Virus record (IMG/VR): IMGVR_UViG_3300033148_005152
Span: 1 to 34,717 of that record
Direction: 5' to 3' (one strand)
Length of the DNA: 34,717 nucleotides
DNA from: a virus
Every line of letters begins with the position of its first letter. Position 1 is the stretch's first letter. The notes beneath the pieces are model-generated. The model worked only from the letters and a program-made list of their open reading frames with translations. It had not been told where the DNA came from and did no database searches. The translations under genes and the position numbers were made by a program. This document shows, piece after piece, positions 18,587 through 33,338 of the stretch.

Positions 18587-19972
18587 TTATGTTTTCTTTT
18601 TTCCTTTAGGCGGTGCTTGAAATTTAGGCTTGCCTGTAGGTTTTGTCAATGTATCCTTATCATAAACAGGTGTCCAATAGCACATACAATTGTGGACTAA
18701 AAATCCTTTTGCCACATAGCTTTCATCTTCTTCAACTGAAAGATTATACAAATCAATTTCTTCTTCTATTTTATATCTTTTTATTGCTTTTATTTCATAA
18801 ACTTTGAATCCATTATTAAAAGATAAACAAGATAACTCGCCCTTTAACTCTGCCTTATCAGCTTCTTGCCATTTACCGTTCAGCATTATTTTATGATTAG
18901 CAGAAAGAGTCAATTCGTAATTAAATTTTTTATCTATAAATAAACTAACCATACTGGTATTTACATTTTTATATTTGTGTAATTGTATTACTTTTCTAAA
19001 TCTACTTTTATGCGTATAAACTAAATCATTTACTTTTACATCTTCTATCTTCTTCCAACCTTTAATTGTATAAACAATAACTCCTGATTGGAAGCAATGA
19101 GGGTGTAAAGGTATTACCCCCCTTGCACTTTCCAAAGTATATTCCTGCATATTTAAAGCTTGGCAAATAGGGCAGGGTCGAACAGAATTTCTTAATTGAA
19201 CTCTTTTAACTTTATTTGCTTTGTAACTTTGCAAAGTCCCTTCAGCATAAGCTCTTGCTGTTTCCGTTCTTGCTATCATTTCAGTTCTATATCTATGCAA
19301 CTTATTTGTATATCTATCTATCATTTGTTCATATTTTTTTCCGCTGATTCCTTCACTTATTAATTTATTTCCATAATTATCAACGGCTTTCCACTGTCTC
19401 GAATGCAACCCTACTCTCCCTTTGATTTCCCTGCCGAGTTGCGCGATGTCTTTTCCTTCTTTAATTCCTCTTGAGATATAAGTCCGCAAAGTTGATTTAG
19501 TATCATCAAGAATTTCCGTAACCAAATTAGCACAGCTTTTTTCAGCAAATTTAACCGCAGGGGTGTTCACAACTTCAAAACTCATTTTCAAATTACCAAA
19601 TTGTATCATCTTATTTCCAGACCTTTGCATAAATCTTATTTCAGCTGGTAAAATTTCTTGCATACCCATTATTTTAATACATTCCCACCCCGCCAATTCA
19701 GCTACAATTTTTCCAGCACTTGCTTTTTCTAATTCTATAAATTTCTTATACGATTTTTTCTTGATTAATCTATTCAATCCATAAATTAAGGTTTCCCTCA
19801 TTTCATTATACCAACCTGCAACTACTCTTTCAAATTCATCTACATCGGATTGTATCAGTCTTCTTAAAGTTTTTGCTTCTCTTTCAGCAATGCCTGATTT
19901 TTCAATAAACATCTGAACAGAATCATTAATGTTTAATTTGACATTTTCTATTTGTTCAACAATCGCTTCCAT
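18587..19972 (-). CDS. Minor head protein, MuF / SPP1 gp7 family, with a mini-intein
   Basis: 461 residues from the ATG at 19972, chosen because GGAG lies 4 bases before it; an earlier in-frame start would overlap the previous gene. The N-terminal 220 residues are helical. The MuF domain shows HRYRTEMIARTETARAYAEG, then RPCPICQALN and PLHPHC.., ending CYWTPV. Between His and Cys of HPHCMC a 136-residue intein is inserted (18689-19096). Spliced, the host protein would be about 325 residues. MuF proteins enter the head at the portal and are packaged in small numbers. The C-terminus is Lys/Pro-rich (QAPPKGKKKT). Confidence 0.85.
   Translation of the reverse strand: MEAIVEQIENVKLNINDSVQMFIEKSGIAEREAKTLRRLIQSDVDEFERVVAGWYNEMRETLIYGLNRLIKKKSYKKFIELEKASAGKIVAELAGWECIKIMGMQEILPAEIRFMQRSGNKMIQFGNLKMSFEVVNTPAVKFAEKSCANLVTEILDDTKSTLRTYISRGIKEGKDIAQLGREIKGRVGLHSRQWKAVDNYGNKLISEGISGKKYEQMIDRYTNKLHRYRTEMIARTETARAYAEGTLQSYKANKVKRVQLRNSVRPCPICQALNMQEYTLESARGVIPLHPHCFQSGVIVYTIKGWKKIEDVKVNDLVYTHKSRFRKVIQLHKYKNVNTSMVSLFIDKKFNYELTLSANHKIMLNGKWQEADKAELKGELSCLSFNNGFKVYEIKAIKRYKIEEEIDLYNLSVEEDESYVAKGFLVHNCMCYWTPVYDKDTLTKPTGKPKFQAPPKGKKKT
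18689..19096 (-). mobile_element. Mini-intein in the minor head protein
   Basis: Residues 293-428 of the gene product. Starts CFQSGVIVYTIKGWKKIEDV (block A with Cys1, then KVNDLVYTHK), has YELTLSANHKIML (block B with the His), and ends LYNLSVEEDESYVAKGFLVHN before Cys+1 (blocks F and G with His-Asn). All residues for standard class 1 splicing are present. There is no LAGLIDADG or HNH block, so it is a mini-intein that cannot move by itself. Removing it restores HPHCMCYW. Confidence 0.88.
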
Positions 19973-19973
19973 G

Positions 19974-20249
19974 TTACTCCGTTTCCAGAATAGCAAATTT
20001 TTTGTAACTTCTCAAATGCCTTTCCAATCTATTTACTAATTCTAAAACTCTTTTTGGCAATTCTTCTTTTGGTATATAATCTAATTCATCAGCCAAACCC
20101 CTTGCAAAGAAAGTATATCCGTTTTCCACAAAGAATTTAGAATGAAGCTGATTATATTTTTTTAGCCAGTTGAATAAAGATTTAATGTCTATTATTTTGT
20201 CAGCTACTTTTTGTTTTTTCCCGTCTATATTTTTTAATGTGAAAAGCAT
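19974..20249 (-). CDS. Small protein of unknown function in the head module
   Basis: 91 residues: MLFTLKNIDGKKQKVADKII, FNWLKKYNQLHSKFFVENGY, FFARGLADELDYIPKEELP, then a basic helix. No family recognised. It begins in TAATTAATTATG directly after the 40-residue gene and ends so that its final GAGTAA is part of the SD for the MuF gene. So it is very probably translated with its neighbours. Confidence 0.65.
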   Translation of the reverse strand: MLFTLKNIDGKKQKVADKIIDIKSLFNWLKKYNQLHSKFFVENGYTFFARGLADELDYIPKEELPKRVLELVNRLERHLRSYKKFAILETE

Positions 20250-20255
20250 AATTAA

Positions 20256-20378
20256 TTATTTTTTTTCTTTTGGTTTTATCTTTCTATCCGACTCTTTTAT
20301 CTTATAAGGATTATATTTCAGTGAAGCCGTTTCATCGTTTATTGTAAACACAACTTTATCTTTTTTTTTCTTTTTCAT
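20256..20378 (-). CDS. 40-residue basic protein
   Basis: Translation: MKKKKKDKVVFTINDETASL, then KYNPYKIKESDRKIKPKEKK. The ATG overlaps the stop of the gene at 20375 as ATGA, and its TAA is followed after 6 bases by the next ATG. Such tight packing on both sides, with no other frame in use, is good evidence that this short gene is real. Function unknown. Confidence 0.65.
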   Translation of the reverse strand: MKKKKKDKVVFTINDETASLKYNPYKIKESDRKIKPKEKK

Positions 20379-21088
20379 AACGCAACCCTCTTATAATCTA
20401 AATCTAAAGTTGAACTTATTGTTTGTATTATTCTATGACTATGCTCTTGGAAAGTTAATGTTCCAGCATCTTCAGGTGATAAACCTTTTTCATCAATTAA
20501 TCTCCAAAAATCCTTTTCAAATTTAGAATGAAGTGCCTTATTAGTATCATTATAAATAGTCTCTAAACGATATGGTGTAGGCCAATATTTTTTTGGTTTC
20601 AATATGTATTCATATTTATCAGATATAACTCTTATTTCTTTTGCATTTATTTTATTTGCAAATATTATATCATCCATAGAAAAACTACAAGGATTAGGAT
20701 GATTATGTATAAAAGTAGTTCCTTGTGCTTTCATTATGTCTGATTCAGTAAATTCAACCTTATTAACTGTTCCTCTTGTTTCAAGCACAGTATTTCCAGC
20801 ATCATCAATTGCTATACTATGTTCTAAACCATCTTCATGGTATTTTTTCATCAAATCTTTTTCTGCGTTATTTATAGCTTCTTTTCTTCCAGGTTCTTTA
20901 ATGGTTTTTTCATTAACAACTTTCCCTTTCTTCTTGCTTTCATCTATTATCTTTTTCGCTTTCGGAGAAATCACTCCACTCAAAGTAGTTCCTGGTACAG
21001 TGCAAGGATTAAATTTTCCTTTTATAATTTGAACCGTGTCGGAACAAATAATATTAACATCTTCTATTATCTCTTTCAAATCCATCAT
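20375..21088 (-). CDS. JAB/MPN-like putative metallopeptidase in the head module
   Basis: 237 residues. Residues 124-150 read TTFIHNHPNPCSFSMDDIIF: His128-x-His130 followed by Ser137 and Asp140, the JAMM-like H-x-H...S-x-x-D zinc motif; the upstream glutamate could be Glu89 or Glu103. After it come VISDKYEYILKP and a helical end. Domains with 'HNHP...SFS..D' are found in phage head-morphogenesis proteins and in some toxin-like proteins, so the role here (processing, or a cargo domain) is uncertain. It starts in an ATGA overlap with the portal gene. Confidence 0.55.
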   Translation of the reverse strand: MMDLKEIIEDVNIICSDTVQIIKGKFNPCTVPGTTLSGVISPKAKKIIDESKKKGKVVNEKTIKEPGRKEAINNAEKDLMKKYHEDGLEHSIAIDDAGNTVLETRGTVNKVEFTESDIMKAQGTTFIHNHPNPCSFSMDDIIFANKINAKEIRVISDKYEYILKPKKYWPTPYRLETIYNDTNKALHSKFEKDFWRLIDEKGLSPEDAGTLTFQEHSHRIIQTISSTLDLDYKRVAL

Positions 21089-22563
21089 TCCGCAATATTT
21101 ATCTCCTCAATTTTATTTCCAAGTTTATTCAAAACTTTCTCTATTTTCTCCTGAAAATTCTCAATCGCTTCTATCATAATTTCATCTCGTTTTTTCAAGG
21201 TTTCCTGCTCGCCTAAATATCTGCCTGGTTCTTTTATTTCTTTCCCTTCACCAGGTTCTCCTGGTTCTTTGCCTGGGACAACATTCCCACTTACACTGCC
21301 TACAGGAATCAAAGTCGATTTGACGAAGTGCGTATCTCCACCTACATATTTTTCACCTATTTCCTGCTCTTCTATTACTTGATTAGGTGTCTTTGCACCA
21401 ATCTCAACAGCTATTCTACTTCTGTTCATTTTTTCAGTCTTATCATCGCCAAGTATATCAGACAAATCAAATCGCAAATATAGCGTTTCACCTTCCTTTG
21501 CAAACTCGGGTAATAGAAAAGCATTAATGGCACTTTCTATTTTATGTAGTTTCGGTTTCATGGTATGCTTATAAAATGCTTTTACTTGCATTCGATAATT
21601 ATCAAACGTCATATTTTTTGTAATACCCAATATAGCGTTGTTAGTACCAAGAACCGCAAGTTGTTCTTCTCTATTCCATTCTCTTTGCAATCTGAATTCC
21701 ATATCTTTTGGGTCCGTGCCTATTGCCTGAAATTTTAAATTAAAAGGTAATACAACCGTTCCATGTGCTTTTGAATATCCCAAAGCCCACTCGTCCCACC
21801 TCAATTTTACTCTTTTCGCTGATTCTTCACCCATTCCTCTATCAGTGTATAATACACCTCTCGGTGTAGCGTAATTTTTGAAAAAGTTTTGATTATAATT
21901 AATAGCATACTCTTCACTTTTAATCGTTTCTACCAAAGGTTTTATCGAACCCATACCATACCAATCATTGAGAGGGTCAAAGTATTTTATGTGAACTATA
22001 TCATCAACATCAAATTCTATTTCTTTTCCGCCTTGTTTTATTCTAAAAACATAACCTTTAACCTTTTTATTCTCTCCATCAGAAATTACTTTCATTCTAT
22101 CAGGTCTTATTACGTGTAATTCTGCTGTTCTGTTTCCAAGTTTATTTGGTACTTTCTCCCAGTAAGCATTTCCGTTTAATTCAGTATAAAGCAAAGTTGA
22201 TTCAAATAAATCAAACCTACTCATTGTATCATTAGGTTTTTCTAAAAGTTTTATAACCGGATGTGTCGGGTCGGTTATTTCCTTTTCTTTTCCATCTTTC
22301 CCCTTACTGATAAGTTTGTAAGGCAAATCCGCTCCTGCCGTTGCTATAGCAAATATAGAAGCGTATACCCAAGGCATGTCTTTATATACACGTGAAAAAC
22401 TTTCATAATTATCAGGTATAGCTACACCTTTTTGTCCTGTATATAATCCTTCCAGTAAAAGCGGCCAAGTCTTGGAAGCTTTTTCAAGCCATTCCTTCTC
22501 TTCTTCTGGACTCACATAATCCCTGTGTAAAATGTTCTTAAAAAATTCTACCGTTTTCGACAT
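21085..22563 (-). CDS. Portal protein, HK97-like family
   Basis: 492 residues, AAAGGA before the ATG. Family features: FSRVYKDMPWVYASIFAIAT near the N-terminus, ELNGNAYWEKVPN, ELHVIRPDRMKVI, DVDDIVHIKYFDPLNDWYGM (the conserved 'hik.......G.g.l'), NFFKNYATPRGVLYTD, LQREWNREEQLAVLGTNNAI, and a final 'KTPNQVIEE' region with the charged tail. It forms the ring at one vertex through which DNA is packaged and to which the connector docks. Confidence 0.95.
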   Translation of the reverse strand: MSKTVEFFKNILHRDYVSPEEEKEWLEKASKTWPLLLEGLYTGQKGVAIPDNYESFSRVYKDMPWVYASIFAIATAGADLPYKLISKGKDGKEKEITDPTHPVIKLLEKPNDTMSRFDLFESTLLYTELNGNAYWEKVPNKLGNRTAELHVIRPDRMKVISDGENKKVKGYVFRIKQGGKEIEFDVDDIVHIKYFDPLNDWYGMGSIKPLVETIKSEEYAINYNQNFFKNYATPRGVLYTDRGMGEESAKRVKLRWDEWALGYSKAHGTVVLPFNLKFQAIGTDPKDMEFRLQREWNREEQLAVLGTNNAILGITKNMTFDNYRMQVKAFYKHTMKPKLHKIESAINAFLLPEFAKEGETLYLRFDLSDILGDDKTEKMNRSRIAVEIGAKTPNQVIEEQEIGEKYVGGDTHFVKSTLIPVGSVSGNVVPGKEPGEPGEGKEIKEPGRYLGEQETLKKRDEIMIEAIENFQEKIEKVLNKLGNKIEEINIAE

Positions 22564-22576
22564 ATCTATTCCTTTC

Positions 22577-25102
22577 TTATATTAAATAAATATCTACGTC
22601 ATCACCAAAACCAGGGTCAGCGAAAGCCATTACAATAGCATCCGTTTCATCTGGCGACCTTTGTCCTCGACTTTTCATGTCCTGTTTTGATTCTATTTGT
22701 ATTTTCTTTTCACGTGATATTTTATATTTTATACCAGACATTTGTGAAATAAGTTCAGGATCGTTTGGTATATCTACCTTCCCTTCTTCAAGTTTCTGTC
22801 TGAAATTCCAATAAGCTTCTGCTCTACGATTCAGAAAATCTATCTTGACAGAAGAATCAGCAAACGCTTCTTTCAAAGGTCTTTCCCCAGCAATGAATTC
22901 CCTAACATCAATTTTTAACTGTTTTAATCTGTCATAAACACCGCTACCAACTCCGACCGTATCAACTAAAGTGATAACTCCCGTCTCATTTTCAAAACTA
23001 TCTTCCTTTTTCTCATCTTCTTTTTTTTCTCTTGCTTCATTATATTCAGATATTTCTTCTTCAACTATCTTACCCGTTTCTTCAACCGTTTCCATAGTGT
23101 CTAATTTCGTGTCCTTGAATCTTATTCTTACTTTATTCCCTTTCCGAACTGCTACCACAATTTTATCACCGCCATACCTTGCAGGGTCAACACCGATTTG
23201 TATATCACTGTTATCTGGTTCTGTTTCTCTTTCAGCCGCCTGCTTTACAAGATGATATGGAAATACAAAATTACCAGCCTGTGAAAAAACCCACAATCCT
23301 TCAACATACTTTTTGACAAGTTCGGGGGGTAAACCCTTTCTCAATCTCTGCTCGTAATCCTTTGGCAAATAAGGATTATCCTTTATCCTTGAAGGAATAA
23401 ATCTATAATCTGGGTCCGGGTTCTCCACAAACGTATCGTGTACCCAACCTATTTCTGGGTTGCTTGTACACAACCCTTTATAAATGGGTCTTGTTCCATT
23501 CGGTAAAAGTATTCTCAATCTTGTTAGCAATAGTTCAAAATATTCCTTTGTAGTTTCTGAAGCTTCATCAATACCAAACCACCCAAGCGTCATTGACTTA
23601 ATCCTATCAACTGGTTTGTCTGTTTGTGTGGGTTTCAATCCTCCGTAATATATAGCCGAACCATTTATAAATTTAATAACCTGTTCACTCTTATTATGTT
23701 GCTTCACCGTTTTATCCCAAAGCCTACGAATGAGAACCTCCTCCAATAAAGTAAGTAAAGTCGTTTTTTTGAAAGTCGTATTTTCATGTCTGCAAAGATA
23801 ACCCCTGTTTCCGGGAAAGATTAAACTCAATAAGACTGCATACCAACAAAGCCAAATGCTATTATGAGTTACTATAAAATCATCTGTTATATATAAACCA
23901 TTTGGATTATCAACAGTAATACATTGTGCTTCTTCTTTTCCAACGTATTCAACATCTATAATTCTTCTTGACAATTCAGAAACCCCACCATTAAAACCAT
24001 TATTCATTCTTTCTCTTTTCCTTGAAAGAAAAACAAGCTGGTCATTTATTTTCGTATTAAAATAAATCGTATATGCCTTCTGTCCATTAAATTTCACATC
24101 CTTATAAACATAAGTAGGTATTTTATCCGTTATTGTAGCTTTCCCCCCTAAAGAATGAATAACAAATTGAAAATCTTTTGCTAACTTTTTGCTAACTGTC
24201 ATATATGACATATGACCCCTATCATCCACATAACCATCCGAATCCATAAGTCCTTGAATCAATTCTATTCTTTCTTCAATAGTCCCCCATTTATAATATT
24301 TAGGAATAAACTTATTATTTGCTATGCAACCAAATATACCTAATTTTTCCAATTTATTTTTCAAAATTTTATTTTTATCTTCTATATACCAAGATTTTTT
24401 ATTTTTACCACATTTTACCTTATACCCATATTCTTTCAATCTTTTACTTATTTCAATATCAAGTGATGTATAACTGATAAAATTGCTCTTATTAGTTAAA
24501 CTACCATCACCAATTAAAATACCCAATAAATATGGTTCAACTGTTCTTGGATTAACTGAATATGACTTTGTAAACCTTAATGGTTTACATAAAGGAATAA
24601 GTAAATTAACTCCTTTAATATAAGCTTTCTTATCTGCTTTTTCTTTATTTCGCAAAAATTCTATAATTTGTTGTGTTGTCCAAATCCTGCTTTCGCCTTG
24701 ACAAAAATCAGTATCAACCAAATAATTCCAATCTTTTCTCTTTGTTTTATGTGGCATTGTCTTTTTAATAAGCCATAAGTGTTCAAGACCAACTTTAGTT
24801 GAAGCTCCATCTGCAAAGGTAATTCGATATAAATCTTTAACTCCTTGTGGATGAACAGCAATAACTTTTTGTGGGGAACCATTAGGATTAAGAATGTTAT
24901 CCCCTACTTTTATATCCCCCATTTTTCTTGTACCATAAGGCGTATATACAATAGAATCAAGGGACTGTAGCTTCCCCCCGCCGACGGCGCCTCCAAATAA
25001 TATATAGAGTTCTTCTGCTGAAACCGCCATCCTTTGTTGCTTATGCAATTCAGGCATCAATACATCTATTGATTCAATTTTCTTTTTTCTTGCTTTTGCC
25101 AC
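22577..25102 (-). CDS. terL: Terminase large subunit interrupted by an intein
   Basis: 841 residues encoded; 471 after splicing, a normal size. GTG start, with AGGTGA before it. N-terminal ATPase: LYILFGGAVGGGK at 32-44, then the intein (45-414), then Ser415 completes Walker A as GGAVGGGKS. Walker B is GWFGIDEA (Asp512, Glu513). The nuclease domain shows GVDPARYGGD (Asp639), ITLVDTVGVG (Asp714) and PDETDAIVMAFAD (Asp818/Asp821), the acidic residues of RNase H-like terminase nucleases. It cuts and pumps DNA into the prohead at the portal. It abuts the portal gene, as usual. Confidence 0.95.
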   Translation of the reverse strand: MAKARKKKIESIDVLMPELHKQQRMAVSAEELYILFGGAVGGGKLQSLDSIVYTPYGTRKMGDIKVGDNILNPNGSPQKVIAVHPQGVKDLYRITFADGASTKVGLEHLWLIKKTMPHKTKRKDWNYLVDTDFCQGESRIWTTQQIIEFLRNKEKADKKAYIKGVNLLIPLCKPLRFTKSYSVNPRTVEPYLLGILIGDGSLTNKSNFISYTSLDIEISKRLKEYGYKVKCGKNKKSWYIEDKNKILKNKLEKLGIFGCIANNKFIPKYYKWGTIEERIELIQGLMDSDGYVDDRGHMSYMTVSKKLAKDFQFVIHSLGGKATITDKIPTYVYKDVKFNGQKAYTIYFNTKINDQLVFLSRKRERMNNGFNGGVSELSRRIIDVEYVGKEEAQCITVDNPNGLYITDDFIVTHNSIWLCWYAVLLSLIFPGNRGYLCRHENTTFKKTTLLTLLEEVLIRRLWDKTVKQHNKSEQVIKFINGSAIYYGGLKPTQTDKPVDRIKSMTLGWFGIDEASETTKEYFELLLTRLRILLPNGTRPIYKGLCTSNPEIGWVHDTFVENPDPDYRFIPSRIKDNPYLPKDYEQRLRKGLPPELVKKYVEGLWVFSQAGNFVFPYHLVKQAAERETEPDNSDIQIGVDPARYGGDKIVVAVRKGNKVRIRFKDTKLDTMETVEETGKIVEEEISEYNEAREKKEDEKKEDSFENETGVITLVDTVGVGSGVYDRLKQLKIDVREFIAGERPLKEAFADSSVKIDFLNRRAEAYWNFRQKLEEGKVDIPNDPELISQMSGIKYKISREKKIQIESKQDMKSRGQRSPDETDAIVMAFADPGFGDDVDIYLI
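23861..24970 (-). mobile_element. LAGLIDADG intein in TerL, class 3 type, inside Walker A
   Basis: Intein of 370 residues starting LQSLDSIVYTPYGTRKMGDI and ending DDFIVTHN before Ser. The first residue is Leu, not Cys or Ser. Block B GASTKVGLEHLW has His and Trp two residues later (B:12); block F has AQCITVDN (Cys at F:4); block G has TH-N with Thr before His. This Trp-Cys-Thr set defines class 3 inteins, which use the block F Cys as first nucleophile. Two endonuclease motifs are clear, YLLGILIGDGSL (147-158) and LIQGLMDSDGYV (237-248), so it may still be mobile. It sits between Lys and Ser of the Walker A motif. Confidence 0.9.
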
Positions 25103-25110
25103 TCAATCAC

Positions 25111-25740
25111 CTAAATCATATGATTTAAAATCTTTCCAACTAAATCACCGTTACATCTATAACAGTTATCATAAATGGAAATCAAATCGTTTGTCTTTCT
25201 GTTTCTGTAAACATTTTCTCCCCATTCAGCTCCACATATACCACAAAAACAATGAAAGAATGCATCTTCATATATAATACAATCTTCTGGTATTTTTGAT
25301 AAGTCTATTTTTCTGAATTCTAAATTCAAATCACGCCTAACCTTTATATAATCTTTTTTTTCTATTTTCTCCTTAACAACATCAAAACTGAATATATTTC
25401 TATTATTTCTTTCCAACACATAACTTTCTACATCTTCAAATAACATCTTTTCCATCACACTTTTTGGTTGTATCGTTTTGAAATAAGAATAAGAAGATTC
25501 AACAAGGCTTGGTATGGATAAATTCTTTTGTCTGATATGTTTTGGTATCTTAAAGCTCCATCGAGCAGATTGATTACTATCAGGTTGGCTCACGTTCAAT
25601 ACAAAATACAATCTATCGTTCAAAGATAATATTCTATTGCCCTTTTTGCTTAATACTATTTTCTCTTTTGCCAATCTGTCGCAAAGACAAGACAAAACTT
25701 TCAACAGGAAACTCAAGGACTTTCCAATTAAAATTTTCAT
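25111..25740 (-). CDS. Unknown protein with C-terminal zinc ribbon, next to terL
   Basis: 209 residues from the ATG at 25740; a TTG 36 bases upstream is the alternative, but a GGAG lies between. The body is mixed: RLYFVLNVSQPDSNQSARWS, then a helical middle (SSYSYFKTIQPKSVMEKM). The end has CFCGICGAEWG and, about 20 residues later, CYRCNGDLVG, giving a likely zinc ribbon. Its stop is followed by the SD of terL, so the two are probably coupled. It could be a packaging accessory or nucleic-acid-binding protein; nothing proves it. Confidence 0.6.
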   Translation of the reverse strand: MKILIGKSLSFLLKVLSCLCDRLAKEKIVLSKKGNRILSLNDRLYFVLNVSQPDSNQSARWSFKIPKHIRQKNLSIPSLVESSYSYFKTIQPKSVMEKMLFEDVESYVLERNNRNIFSFDVVKEKIEKKDYIKVRRDLNLEFRKIDLSKIPEDCIIYEDAFFHCFCGICGAEWGENVYRNRKTNDLISIYDNCYRCNGDLVGKILNHMI

Positions 25741-25869
25741 AAATTTTTGTCTCTCCAAAAAGATATAATTCTTCAAAAAAAGAAAATAATTCTTTTGTTT
25801 TAAAGAAACAAGAAAAAATAATTAAATTAATTTTCTCATTTTGGGATTTTATTTTGTATATTGTTATGA

Positions 25870-25998
25870 AAAGGCGTTGTTCTGAATGATTTATTGATAA
25901 AAGCAGGAACTAAAGTTATTAATGATGAAGAAAACTGTGATATTAATCTCAACCCTATGAAACTGGAAAAAGATACGATTATAAAAATTATGAAATAA
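25870..25998 (+). pseudogene. Possible remnant of a plus-strand gene
   Basis: An open frame of 43 codons with no good start: it would read ..KGVVLNDLLIKAGTKVINDE and end DTIIKIMK. The composition looks like protein, and TAATTAATTA begins with its stop codon, as at several real gene ends. The nearest possible start is TTG at 25894; upstream an ATG in another frame (25866) meets a stop after a few codons. It could be the tail of a decayed gene. Together with 25741-25869 it is the divergent spacer between terL-side and plus-strand genes; I see no convincing promoter there. Confidence 0.3.
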
Positions 25999-26021
25999 TT
26001 AATTACAAAAGGAATCCAATT

Positions 26022-26426
26022 ATGAGCATTAAAAATATAACAAATAAAAATAAGATAAACCCTTATTTCCCAAAGGACTATGAAAAGAGGCTGGAAGAAG
26101 AAAAAACAATTGAAATAAATACTACTGAAAACCAAAAAGAAAATTTCCAAAGCCCTAATCACATTGATTCTGCTCCCATCTCCATAATATCAAATATAAC
26201 AGCTCCTTTATTTGAAAATGTTATCGACCTTTGCGAAAAACAAATGAAACTGAATAGTTACAAAGACCACTGGTCAACGAGGTCAAATATATATCTGTTC
26301 AGAAACTTGTTGAACAAATTAGATGAACTTGAACAGGCAGAGACAAGGGATAAGACATTGGAATATTGTGCTGATGCTATAAATTATTTGCTTATGATTG
26401 TCGATAACGAAAAGAGAAAGGAATAA
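26022..26426 (+). CDS. Small protein, possibly MazG-like nucleotide pyrophosphohydrolase fold
   Basis: 134 residues, AAAGGAA before the ATG. The C-terminal 60 residues read SNIYLFRNLLNKLDELEQAE, then KTLEYCADAINYLLMIVDN, in the pattern of short phage MazG-like proteins (E..EL near the start of one helix, a D..N.... helix near the end). The pattern is weak and lacks a full ExxE motif, so the call is tentative. Residues 13-24, NPYFPKDYEKRL, closely match NPYLPKDYEQRL of TerL, also at DNA level. It is the first gene of the plus-strand cassette. Confidence 0.6.
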   Translation: MSIKNITNKNKINPYFPKDYEKRLEEEKTIEINTTENQKENFQSPNHIDSAPISIISNITAPLFENVIDLCEKQMKLNSYKDHWSTRSNIYLFRNLLNKLDELEQAETRDKTLEYCADAINYLLMIVDNEKRKE

Positions 26427-26434
26427 TCAATTTT

Positions 26435-26761
26435 ATGGAGACAAATAGAGATAAAATAATTTCCCATTGCCGAATAGGTAGAGAAAACAAAATGGGAAAC
26501 TGGATAACAAAAACATATAAAATAGAAAAAATAAAACCTGAAAAAAGAGAAATAATATCTGGTATTTTTACATGCGAAAAAGAATTAAAAGATTCAATAG
26601 AAAAAACAGTCCATTGGATGAAAAAGAATAACTACGATGTAAGTGTTGAATATAAATATTTCCATGATGATAGATGTATGGTAGGTCATATTGATATACA
26701 CGGTAAAAAATATTTTAAAAAGGGTCGAAGATATAAAATAGTTAAAATTGTAGATGATTAA
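26435..26761 (+). CDS. Unknown small protein
   Basis: 108 residues. It starts 9 bases after the previous gene, with AGGA before the ATG; a second ATG at 26492 is possible. It is basic and mixed alpha/beta: MGNWITKTYKIEKIKPEKRE, KKNNYDVSVEYKYFHDDRCM, GHIDIHGKKYFKKGRRYKIV. The last part looks like a small beta-barrel. No family recognised. Confidence 0.65.
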   Translation: METNRDKIISHCRIGRENKMGNWITKTYKIEKIKPEKREIISGIFTCEKELKDSIEKTVHWMKKNNYDVSVEYKYFHDDRCMVGHIDIHGKKYFKKGRRYKIVKIVDD

Positions 26762-26821
26762 AAGAGAAAGGATAATAAAAAAATTAATAAACAAATTAAG
26801 AAAATATAATAGGAAGGAAAG

Positions 26822-27172
26822 ATGATTGACTTTTATCCTGTCCTGGTTGCCTTAACAATATTAAGTGCATGTTTTATTTATATTATTTATACTGACTGGA
26901 AAAAAAGAAAAAAACGAAAAGAATTATATAACGATAAAGAATTAAAAGCTTCCCTGCTTTGGTTCAAAGATTATGCTGAAAACTTTTTAGAAAAAGAAGA
27001 AGCAATAAGATATAAAAACACAATATTACAAATGCTGAACAACCACACACCTAAAGAAGAAATAAAAGCATATATTGAACACATAAAACCTTTTCAAGAA
27101 ATGCTTGGAAAATTAAATAAATTAAATTGGAATAGAAAGGAAATTTCTAATTATAAAACTAAAAAATTTTAA
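26822..27172 (+). CDS. Small membrane-anchored protein, unknown
   Basis: 116 residues, GGAAGG before the ATG. A single hydrophobic helix at residues 5-25 (YPVLVALTILSACFIYIIYT) is followed by WKKRKKRK, which would leave the rest in the cytoplasm. The rest is helical: ELKASLLWFKDYAENFLEKE, KEEIKAYIEHIKPFQEMLG. Nothing links it to a known superinfection or lysis family. It lies in the plus-strand cassette. Confidence 0.65.
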   Translation: MIDFYPVLVALTILSACFIYIIYTDWKKRKKRKELYNDKELKASLLWFKDYAENFLEKEEAIRYKNTILQMLNNHTPKEEIKAYIEHIKPFQEMLGKLNKLNWNRKEISNYKTKKF

Positions 27173-27191
27173 ATTATTTGGAGAAAGTAAA

Positions 27192-27584
27192 ATGGAAAAA
27201 GAATATGATTTTTCTCCGGATGATGTTATTGCGGGAATTTTGGCTTATTCAGAGTTAAAAGAAATGACTAGTTCAAAGGATAAGATTCATAAAATTATTT
27301 TTAACTTAAAAGAAGAATCAAAATCAGAACATCCTGAATTATTAGAAGATTTGAATTTCCCTCAAAACAATGTTTATCCTTTTTCAAGAGAATTGGAAAG
27401 CATTTTAATAGGTTTACAGATTAGTGGTATAATTGAAGCCAAAAATACTAAATATTTAGAGTATTTAATTGACGAATCTGGAAGAGAGTATATAAAAAAT
27501 GAATTGATAAAGAATTTTGATATTGAGCAAAAAGAATATATAAAAGAGTTAGGAAAGCGATTTAATGAATTGATAAAAGAATAA
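27192..27584 (+). CDS. Helical protein, possibly winged-helix type, unknown
   Basis: 130 residues, GGAG before the ATG. Helix-rich with YPFSRELESILIGLQISGII, a pattern like the end of a winged-helix or antitoxin-like domain, then KYLEYLIDESGREYIKNEL and a charged end. It may bind DNA or a partner protein, but I cannot name a family. It lies 19 bases after the previous gene. Confidence 0.65.
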   Translation: MEKEYDFSPDDVIAGILAYSELKEMTSSKDKIHKIIFNLKEESKSEHPELLEDLNFPQNNVYPFSRELESILIGLQISGIIEAKNTKYLEYLIDESGREYIKNELIKNFDIEQKEYIKELGKRFNELIKE

Positions 27585-27705
27585 AAAATGCTAAAACAGT
27601 AAATCAATTGCATAAAGACGAAGAACCTCTTTTTTATATTTTTTTGTAAAAAATTTAACGTCGTTTTTCACATCAGAAAACTTTAATTTTTCCTGGATTT
27701 TTTAC

Positions 27706-27897
27706 ATGACAAAGAAAAAAGATTTTTCAAAGTCATTAAAAAACTACGAAAGCAAATGGGTAGCGTTATCATTCAATCAGAAGAAGATAGTATCATCTTC
27801 AAATAATCCAAAACAAGCATTAAAATTAGCTATAGAAAAAGGCGAGAAAAACCCATTAGTGTTTAAAGTGTTAAACAACCATTATCGTTATTTCTGA
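27706..27897 (+). CDS. DUF5678-like small protein
   Basis: 63 residues with the DUF5678 pattern: LKNYESKWVALSFNQKKIV, SSSNNPKQALKLAIEKGEKN, PLVFKVLNNHYRYF. The family pattern is 'Y.gkWVAl......vvasg.t..eA...A...g..dp...kV'. Function is unknown. No SD is visible before the ATG. It is the last gene of the plus-strand cassette; 27585-27705, before it, holds nothing recognisable. Confidence 0.55.
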   Translation: MTKKKDFSKSLKNYESKWVALSFNQKKIVSSSNNPKQALKLAIEKGEKNPLVFKVLNNHYRYF

Positions 27898-28059
27898 AAT
27901 AATATCTTTCCTTAGCGTAAAAACAATATTAAAATAAAAAAGAAGTGTTAATATATTATTAAAATATTAGCAAAAGCAAAAACTACTCTCTATACCATAA
28001 AAACAGAAAAACCACTCCTATTTTCACTTAATTTTTCCAAAAAATCAAATATAATCCCT

Positions 28060-28073
28060 CGCGCGTGCGCGCG
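28060..28073. repeat. Alternating CG tract
   Basis: CGCGCGTGCGCGCG: 14 bases of strict pyrimidine-purine alternation, almost self-complementary, in an AT-rich setting. This is a classic Z-DNA-forming sequence. Chance occurrence is unlikely at this base composition. Confidence 0.8.
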
Positions 28074-28759
28074 TTTACATGATCATGATTTATATATATA
28101 GATAAATAAAATACTAGGTCATTGTTTAAAAAATTTTTACTGTTAAAATATTAATAAAATATCAGTAAAAAAAATTATAATTAAAACATTAGTGTTAGAA
28201 AACAGAGGAATATTTAGTTTAATGTGTGTGTGGTATATTACCTGTTTCCATATCTAACGTGAAAACGTGTTTAAAAAAATAATCTCTTTTTATGTTTTGT
28301 TGATTCGTGAACGGGTGGCATTTCATAAACACACTCTTCAATCGTTTTTCTCGATTTTTTATATAAACACACATCATTTAAAAATAACATGAGTTGTAAT
28401 ATACTGTTAGAATCGTTTAAAACACGTCTGGGAACGTCTGTATTGAAAGATAATAAAAAAGGTATGGTATTATATGCCTAAAAAATAAAAACACCTTACA
28501 AGTGGTATTTTAAAACAATAACAAAAAAGATTGCTTGTAAGCTACTTTCTCATTTTAGTTATATATTATCATTACTTTTTAATAAAAGTTTGTTAGAAGA
28601 CGTCTATGAAGCATATAGAGGTGTTTTTATGTTATGTTTCAGACTGGATATTTACCTAATCGGTAAGGGTACAGTGGACAATCAACATCAGAACACGTAA
28701 CAACTTGGTTTCTACCCTCGTATTTAAAAATAGAAATTGTTACCCGTAAAATAAAATTT

Positions 28760-28790
28760 TAGAATATATATATAATATATATATATTCTA
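28760..28790. repeat. 31-base perfect AT palindrome
   Basis: Each arm is 15 bases, TAGAATATATATATA and its reverse complement, with a single A in the middle. It could extrude as a cruciform or act as a duplex-unwinding element. On neither strand is it followed by a U-run, so it is not a normal terminator. Confidence 0.85.
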
Positions 28791-28967
28791 CTACATGTCA
28801 TTTACTATAGTGTTCATGACGATATATCAGGTTACAATGAACAATCTTATCACATTTATTACAAAGCATAACAATATATTTCATAATATTTCCCTTTCAA
28901 TAAAAACAATAACTTATCAACTATCCATCTTTATAACTACTAATAATAATAAATACTTATTACAAGT

Positions 28968-29585
28968 TTACATAATACTTATTATGCGACATATATAAAT
29001 GAATAAAAACAACAGGTTAGCTTTTACGATAATAACATACTTTTTCTTCACTTCTGTATATTCAGCTTCTTCTATATTCCCATCTCTAATTTCCTTCATT
29101 GACTTTCCTGATATTTTCTGTAAACCTCCTATTTTCAAGTTAATAGATACAGGGGCTTGCTTAACTGCTTTAACACTTTTAGGTCTCTGTCCAAACTCCT
29201 CTGGTAGATTTCTTTCCAAAATCCAAGAATATGCCATCCAAAATTTCTTTCCGTGTATCCTCAATGCTTTCAATATGTTAAGCACTCCTTCAGCTCTTGC
29301 TTTGTTCAGTTCCCGGGCTAGATTATCGTTGTTTTCCATCGCCTCTCTCACCTCATCCTCATATAATCCTACTGCCTCACAAGAATACTTAAAATTTCCC
29401 GTTTCCTTTAAATTTCTTTTAATTTTCTCTTTTACTTTGTACCATATTCCTTTTCTTCCTATTACCCCCGGCTGCCTCTTTTTCACTGGCATATTACTCC
29501 TGTACTTTCTCTTTTCTATTATCAAAGAAGCAAACATCCGCCTGATTTGTTTTTTCAACTGTGTTCTATTATATTCCTTCTCCAT
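28968..29585 (-). CDS. terS: Terminase small subunit (probable)
   Basis: 205 residues, GAGAAAG-type weak SD. Residues 58-140 carry a helix-turn-helix-like stretch followed by helices, as in small terminases: LKETGNFKYSCEAVGLYEDE, VREAMENNDNLARELNKARA, then LKALRIHGKKFWMAYSWILE and RNLPEEFGQRPK. It would recognise the packaging site and load TerL. The last 25 residues (KKYVIIVKANLLFLFIYICR..) are hydrophobic, which is odd for this family and may mark a recent change of the 3' end. About 3.2 kb separate it from terL; in most phages they adjoin. Confidence 0.7.
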   Translation of the reverse strand: MEKEYNRTQLKKQIRRMFASLIIEKRKYRSNMPVKKRQPGVIGRKGIWYKVKEKIKRNLKETGNFKYSCEAVGLYEDEVREAMENNDNLARELNKARAEGVLNILKALRIHGKKFWMAYSWILERNLPEEFGQRPKSVKAVKQAPVSINLKIGGLQKISGKSMKEIRDGNIEEAEYTEVKKKYVIIVKANLLFLFIYICRIISIM

Positions 29586-32570: not shown

Positions 32571-33338
32571 TTAACTCTCTATATATAAATCTTTCAAAGC
32601 GTTTTCCAGTTCATCTATTGACAATTTTCTCAATATTTTCATTTTCTTGACTCTAAATTTACCACTTGAATTATAAGGAATAGCAACTATATCTTTTGCT
32701 GTAAACTCAACTTCAATATAAATTTTCGATAAATCTTTTTCTGTATCTCTCAAACACCAATCAAGTGTAGCAACATTATACCCACTCCCACACGAGTATC
32801 TTTCGTCATCATTATAGCCATATGTTTCATACGCTTTTCCTATTTCATATTTGAATTTTCGATAAGGGGATTCAAAAGTATTATCTAAATATTTATAAGC
32901 TCGTAGTTTTCCTGGTTGATATTTAAGAATATTTAATGAGGTTCTAAATATTGATGGTATGTTTTTTGCTTTTTCAAGATTTGCTCCATAAAGATTTGCC
33001 TTGTAAAGAATTGCTCCTTCAAGATTTGCCTTGTGAAGATTTGCCCCATAAAGATTTACTCCATAAAGATTTGCTCCATAAAGATTTGCCTCTACAAGAT
33101 TTATTCTTTCAAGATTTGCCTCTTGAAGATTTGCCTCTTTAAGATTCGACTCTTTAAGATTTGCCTCTTTAAGATTTGCCTCTACAAGATTTATTCTTTC
33201 AAGATTTGCCTTGTGAAGATATGCTCCCTCAAGATTTGCCTTGTAAAGATTTACCTTGTGAAGATTTACTTTATAAAGAATTGCTTCTGAAAGATTTTTA
33301 TCTTTTTTATACTTCTCCAAAACTTCTTCTCTGGTCAT
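32571..33338 (-). CDS. Pentapeptide-repeat protein with C-terminal domain
   Basis: 255 residues. Residues 15-125 hold about 22 pentapeptides of the A(N/D)LxX type: YKVNL, YKANL, EGAYL, HKANL, KEANL, YGANL, repeating at 15-base periods. They should form a right-handed four-sided beta helix. The C-terminal 130 residues (PSIFRTSLNILKYQPGKLRA, then SCGSGYNVATLDWCLRD) are the type of domain (DUF5758-like) seen attached to phage pentapeptide proteins. DNA mimicry that inhibits gyrase or another host factor is known for the family but not shown here. Confidence 0.85.
   Translation of the reverse strand: MTREEVLEKYKKDKNLSEAILYKVNLHKVNLYKANLEGAYLHKANLERINLVEANLKEANLKESNLKEANLQEANLERINLVEANLYGANLYGVNLYGANLHKANLEGAILYKANLYGANLEKAKNIPSIFRTSLNILKYQPGKLRAYKYLDNTFESPYRKFKYEIGKAYETYGYNDDERYSCGSGYNVATLDWCLRDTEKDLSKIYIEVEFTAKDIVAIPYNSSGKFRVKKMKILRKLSIDELENALKDLYIES

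Follow-up and report, generated by a model that had tools for sequence, protein, structure and literature searches.

The large terminase gene (terL) of an uncultured tailed phage has very probably been invaded, as judged from its sequence, by a class 3 intein that carries a LAGLIDADG homing endonuclease and lies between the codons of the Walker A lysine and serine. It is one more class 3 terminase intein, the same arrangement being already known in named phages, and as a case it is ordinary. The part worth following is the family pattern of P-loop junctions to which it leads.

The intein and its host gene

The window (the whole stretch of DNA analysed, 34,717 bases of an IMG/VR virus record) contains terL and its intein with the following parts:

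22577..25102, minus strand: terL, large terminase precursor with intein, 841 aa, GTG start at 25102; Terminase_3, PHROG terminase large subunit
24971..25102, minus strand: N-extein, 44 aa, with Walker A GGAVGGGK at its end (24971-24994)
23861..24970, minus strand: putative class 3 intein with LAGLIDADG homing endonuclease, 370 aa, precursor residues 45-414
24773..24781, minus strand: block B His64-Leu65-Trp66 (B:10 His, B:12 Trp), His and Trp in 141/141 relatives
24503..24529, minus strand: LAGLIDADG motif 1, LLGILIGDG, residues 148-156, acid D155
24233..24259, minus strand: LAGLIDADG motif 2, IQGLMDSDG, residues 238-246, acid D245
23921..23923, minus strand: block F Cys350 (F:4), proposed initiating nucleophile, Cys in 141/141
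23861..23869, minus strand: block G Thr368-His369-Asn370, THN in 141/141
23858..23860, minus strand: Ser+1, second nucleophile; in mature TerL the Walker A serine
22577..23860, minus strand: C-extein, 427 aa, with FGIDEASE, which we take to be Walker B-like, and the terminase family match

The original prediction, made from the sequence alone, had placed an intein at 23861-24970, exactly inside the Walker A motif, and these boundaries proved to be exact. The intein takes up 370 residues (45-414) of the 841-residue open reading frame and splits GGAVGGGK↓S (the arrow marks the junction) between Lys44 and Ser415 of the precursor, the N- and C-terminal junctions reading GGAVGGGK↓LQSLDS and FIVTHN↓SIWL, and its removal leaves 44 + 427 = 471 extein residues, as had been foreseen. 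The C-extein matches Terminase_3 in Pfam (1.1e-9, above the family cut-off) and the terminase family phrog_979 in PHROG (4.7e-18), and the extein matches TIGR01547 at 4e-16, a value below the cut-off of that family. The portal gene (21085-22563) adjoins terL, positions 28968-29585 encode a candidate small terminase (PHROG, 6.9e-7), and the portal, capsid, protease and tape-measure genes near terL are all open. The intein has a lower GC content than its exteins (29% against 42% and 37%; GC3 of 0.17 against 0.39 and 0.29), in keeping with a segment that is mobile or under weaker constraint.

An assembly artefact was also considered, and a second contig with the identical gene counts against it. 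The IMG/VR contig L002 (sample 3300033141) aligns with window positions 22115-28931 with 0 mismatches over 6856 bases of gapped alignment, and because it is identical through the gene an error in the assembly of terL or of the intein is argued against. The same contig has one extra 39-base tandem copy near window position 28453, outside terL.

Three further features were observed in the window. A second, different intein, a mini-intein of 136 residues with Cys1 and an HN↓C end, lies at 18689-19096 (minus strand) in the open reading frame 18587-19996; it matches TIGR01443 at 2.9e-7, over the cut-off, and neither the Trp-Cys-Thr (W-C-T) set nor an endonuclease match was found in it. Its host is an SPP1 gp7/MuF-like minor capsid protein, split at HPH↓CMC near the C-terminus. 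Matches to this mini-intein occur in 13 phage records (E ≤ 0.01), in one of which (L242) the gene is not MuF, and in IMG/VR in one identical contig and one partial match (L244). The open reading frame at 20375-21088 (minus strand), between the portal and MuF genes, encodes an FIHNHP motif and weakly matched one PHROG family of unknown function, with no match in Pfam. Finally, an array of 22 copies of a 15-base repeat (32965-33297) lies inside the open reading frame 32571-33338, which encodes ANLxxANL pentapeptide-like repeats.

Class 3 signature, fold and splicing

Relatives were found by patterns inside the intein, so that the junction was not selected for, and being the top matches to the query they are not a random sample. 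The wide set, built from the best 80 viral loci, the best 80 genome loci and 21 further loci, gave 183 open reading frame hits, 180 inteins once L105 (two frame-split pieces) and the truncated L119 were left out, 142 clusters at 90% identity, and 141 without the fragment L062. The original prediction had held class 3 inteins to be few, and this part of it did not survive: 753 of 50,697 phage records match the window intein, and relatives are encoded in at least 572 IMG/VR stretches and at least 254 stretches of GTDB genomes.

The intein begins with Leu, with no Cys, Ser or Thr at position 1, where class 3 inteins do not require one, and its W-C-T triplet is complete (W66 at B:12, C350 at F:4 and T368 at G:5), which confirms the combination that had been read from the sequence. 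H64, W66, C350, T368, H369 and N370 are invariant in all 141 relatives (clustered at 90%), and the catalytic positions are invariant also in a smaller alignment of 15 sequences. The Thr of the block B TxxH, which class 3 inteins generally do without, is absent from the window intein (Gly61-Leu-Glu-His64), and that column holds Thr in 21 of the 141. The residue at +1, which is Ser or Thr in class 3 inteins, is Ser in the window intein, and Thr in 112 and Ser in 30 of the 142 clusters. At position 1 Ala is found in 102 and Leu in 9 of the 141 relatives, Leu being thus a minority state, and these counts include three TerL rows with a longer N-terminus in which position 1 is misplaced. Other splice sites were rejected, the relatives ending at the same THN in both alignments (15/15 and 141/141).

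As controls we took other inteins from genomes also holding relatives (loci from 19 genomes, 24 matches), using the C-terminal blocks that were recovered for 11 of the matches. None of these 11 combines a block F Cys with a block G Thr; L225 has a Cys at a place like F:4 without the G Thr, and L219 has THN without the F Cys. Among named-phage records the W-C-T set is complete in 13 of 15 and missing in two (L212 and L215). The set is therefore not general to inteins, and the class 3 assignment is strongly supported.

The AlphaFold2 model of the intein is confident (pLDDT 87.3, pTM 0.87). It matches PI-SceI, the VMA1 intein, from end to end (338 residues, Z 27.8), sharing with it the architecture of a splicing domain plus a LAGLIDADG endonuclease, although at 15-18% identity; PI-SceI splices by the class 1 route and resides in a yeast V-ATPase. 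The splicing domain shares its fold (Z 18-19, rmsd 1.5-1.9) and its W-C-T set with the class 3 DnaB inteins Msm DnaBi1 (6bs8; Z 18.9, rmsd 1.5 over 123 residues) and MchDnaB1 (6rix; Z 18.1). The class 1 intein Gp41-1 (6qaz) reaches Z 17.1, within 2 of the class 3 structures, and the fold alone hence does not assign the class. By sequence the best solved structure is that of the class 3 DnaB intein 6bs8 (7e-9), in line with the class predicted. DnaBi1 likewise interrupts a P-loop, whose Ser is its +1 residue (PMC6195587), but it is a mini-intein that lacks an endonuclease, begins with Ala1 and is hosted by a replicative helicase. Two LAGLIDADG motifs had been said to remain in the window intein, and indeed both acids (D155 and D245) are present and the region matches Pfam LAGLIDADG_3 at 5e-11. 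Both acids are found in 134 of the 141 relatives, and parts of the endonuclease are lost in some of them (L021, L022). The endonuclease of the window intein looks intact.

Class 3 splicing proceeds through a branched intermediate at block F, for which the Cys at F:4 is obligatory. This chemistry rests on experiments in other members, in which mutation of the Cys at F:4 abolishes splicing (PMC5222942). For the window intein we infer splicing, cleavage, homing and an inactive precursor. The chain would be transferred to Ser+1, Asn370 would cyclise and release the intein, and an acyl shift would then link GGAVGGGK with S, so that the 471-residue TerL regains its ATP-binding loop. With the P-loop Lys and Ser 370 residues apart, it is a sound inference that the precursor has neither ATP binding nor ATPase activity, and RadA is described as a precedent for a precursor with an intein-split P-loop that does not bind ATP (PMC6195587). 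In co-infection the endonuclease would cut intein-free terL alleles and the intein gene would be copied across, a step suggested by the two intact LAGLIDADG motifs together with the existence of intein-free TerL relatives. Eight alignments to TerL relatives span the junction, six of them from intein-containing genes and two without intein: L035, with GGRGGSK↓S aligned across the junction without a gap, and L024, with GGRASGK↓S and an alignment gap of 5 residues directly behind the Ser. No near pair of alleles with and without the intein was seen, the junction-spanning intein-free TerL proteins being about 25% identical.

The simplest reading is that of a selfish homing element persisting at an unmutable site, the element surviving because its insertion site cannot mutate. 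It is possible that splicing acts as a regulated gate for packaging; the fuller version of that idea, a post-translational switch in which redox, zinc or host state delays splicing and packaging waits until late infection, we consider unlikely. The splitting of Walker A in the precursor speaks for it, as activity should require splicing. Also in its favour, the class 3 intein Msm DnaBi1, itself in a P-loop, is subject to redox inhibition that involves the Cys of block F together with another Cys that is not conserved (PMC6195587). However, both endonuclease acids are kept, as expected of an actively homing element, and five terminase inteins elsewhere spliced readily, with the precursor readily visible for one (PMC5050341).

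The reading as a selfish element has also to be weighed against decay, in which a non-splicing intein would leave TerL dead and the contig would be a defective phage or prophage remnant. The AT-richness of the intein and the missing endonuclease parts of some relatives would agree with this, but the 841-residue frame is open, the catalytic residues are all there, the model is confident, the structural and packaging-related neighbours named above are open and L002 is identical through terL, so that decay appears very improbable. That the window intein belongs to class 1 or class 2 (with Ser+1, for instance, as the direct initiator) and only resembles class 3 is the least probable of these readings, for even though the splicing fold is common to all classes and L215, in a Jerseyvirus helicase, sits at the same Lys↓Thr junction with Cys1 and without the block B Trp or block F Cys, position 1 of the window intein has no Cys, Ser or Thr, its W-C-T set is complete, and the set is not found in the 11 controls, W and C being missing in the two named-phage exceptions.

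The P-loop junction in terminases and other extein families

The same arrangement is found in the named phages Eureka, Thiohalocapsa phage MD04 and TaPaz, the gene of Acinetobacter phage TaPaz being already annotated as intein-containing. The TerL1-a intein of mycobacteriophages lies between the invariant Lys and Thr of the P-loop, and of the mycobacteriophage terminase inteins five were shown to splice and two to cleave alleles that lack the intein (Kelley et al. 2016, PMC5050341). Judging from its site, the intein of Eureka gp8 (L209) would belong to the TerL1-a group and, judging in turn from Eureka, the TerL1-a inteins would be class 3. Like the window intein, that of Eureka gp8 has the full class 3 signature, the LAGLIDADG acids and a place in a large terminase between Lys and Thr (RKNGK↓T); unlike it, it has Ala1 and Thr+1 instead of Leu1 and Ser+1, and the two inteins are 25% identical. 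Thiohalocapsa phage LS06-2018-MD04 (L203, OP947166) has GGAAGGGK↓S, Leu1, a full W-C-T set and both LAGLIDADG acids. Its precursor can be matched over 79% of the length, at about 32% identity, and carries no intein annotation. Its gene is named 'DarB-like antirestriction' and that of L216 (MK359330) 'HNH endonuclease', which look like misannotations driven by the intein. Across the named-phage records the junction is Lys↓Ser/Thr in 12 of 15, and L204, L210 and L212 differ, with boundaries that were set automatically; one of the 12, L216, has VELK↓T, which is not a P-loop.

In the wide set the junction is Lys↓Ser/Thr in 139 of 141 relatives (136 as scored and three TerL inteins after boundary correction), and the exteins fall into 25-27 sequence groups. 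Among 40 representative C-exteins scanned against Pfam (E ≤ 1e-4) we found DnaB_C, RecA, PhoH, SNF2, RecD-like, ClpA/B/C- and ClpB/ClpX-type AAA_2, DNA_pol3_delta2, RecG, AAA_24, AAA_23, AAA_34, ResIII, TraG-D and T7-type terminase; a Pfam match was absent in 9 of the 40, and L130 and L135 had matches under the family cut-off only. The extein labels are our own assignment: 36 TerL rows were labelled by clustering with the window and not by Pfam, and 11 helicase-like exteins (three of them scanned, with no Pfam match) were counted as SF2 by appearance, another choice shifting the counts slightly. The coarse labels join PhoH with RecD2 and RecA with DnaB, a grouping that we assume.

The extein labels were mapped on quick LG+G4 trees of the W-C-T inteins, and the change counts are approximate, as 54 of the 138 inner branches of the main tree are open forks and 29 rows have unusual composition. 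The fewest extein-family changes on the intein tree were 30 for 24 labels (minimum 23, shuffled mean 96), and the supported branches by themselves require that PhoH was gained or lost at least 5 times and SNF2 at least 3 times. When 132 of the rows were assigned to five coarse superfamilies and the other 9 set aside, the lowest number of changes was 15 (minimum 4, shuffled 75), and for families and coarse groups respectively the lowest numbers were 32 and 17 on the splicing-only tree and 34 and 19 on the endonuclease-only tree. The window intein falls in a clade of 31 TerL members (support 99), all at Lys↓Ser/Thr after three boundary corrections. Closely related inteins thus tend to share an extein label, but the lineage seems to have moved repeatedly from one unrelated NTPase to another while staying at one junction.

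Several members of the set are unusual. Two sister inteins (support 95) occur in neighbouring genes of phage contig L006, in PhoH at GK↓T and in a ResIII helicase at GK↓S (L006:3998-5059 and L006:7559-8662). An open reading frame of a Neisseriaceae MAG that clusters with PhoH (L166:3228-6200) has two intein-profile hits and two VTHN ends in one frame, and is perhaps two inteins in one protein. The TerL inteins L058, L099 and L148 share a conserved N-terminal extension, xGRCPDRAxPSY, which follows the Walker A Lys and precedes the normal intein start. The exceptions in junction are L190, placed after the GKGR of an AAA_34 NTPase, and L150, in a helicase away from Walker A, and L178 has Lys↓Thr without a recognisable Walker A and a C-extein without a Pfam match.

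Targeting and retention at the P-loop

Taking these results together we lean, if not strongly, towards one class 3 lineage having specialised in the Walker A Lys↓Ser/Thr junction, not in a single gene, and having moved repeatedly among P-loop NTPases that are not related to each other (terminases, DnaB, RecA, PhoH, SNF2, RecD2, RecG, ClpA/B/C-type, clamp-loader-like and others), with the P-loop Ser or Thr of the host as its +1 nucleophile. The motif would then be a universal landing place for a parasite that lives at the level of the protein. A transfer of class 3 inteins between DnaB and TerL was proposed by Kelley et al. 2016 (PMC5050341). The pattern across many families was not found in the literature that we searched, which was limited to open-licence papers.

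Whether such a pattern is due to targeting of DNA or to retention at sites that cannot change requires taking into account the sequences that flank the junction. Intein distance and flank identity were weakly correlated among the 8,680 cross-family pairs (Spearman -0.25), and at the third codon positions of the flanks the same pairs gave no signal of DNA targeting (Spearman -0.03). The 1,190 same-family pairs gave -0.58 overall and -0.21 at third codon positions, and the flank bases conserved most are the GxxxxGK↓T codons. Because the third codon positions give no cross-family signal, a choice of sites by the endonuclease cannot be shown, and this counts against the strongest form of the P-loop-hopping reading. 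Moreover, L215 is also at Lys↓Thr, so class 3 inteins are not alone in this preference of site, and much of the preference may come from retention where the sequence cannot change.

Why inteins concentrate in P-loops has been posed as an open question in a review (PMC5874633). A single lineage found at one junction in some two dozen extein groups offers a natural experiment in which DNA targeting can be set against selective retention. Its splicing domains lie at GK↓S/T between N- and C-exteins that differ widely, and as a panel they may be useful for protein engineering.
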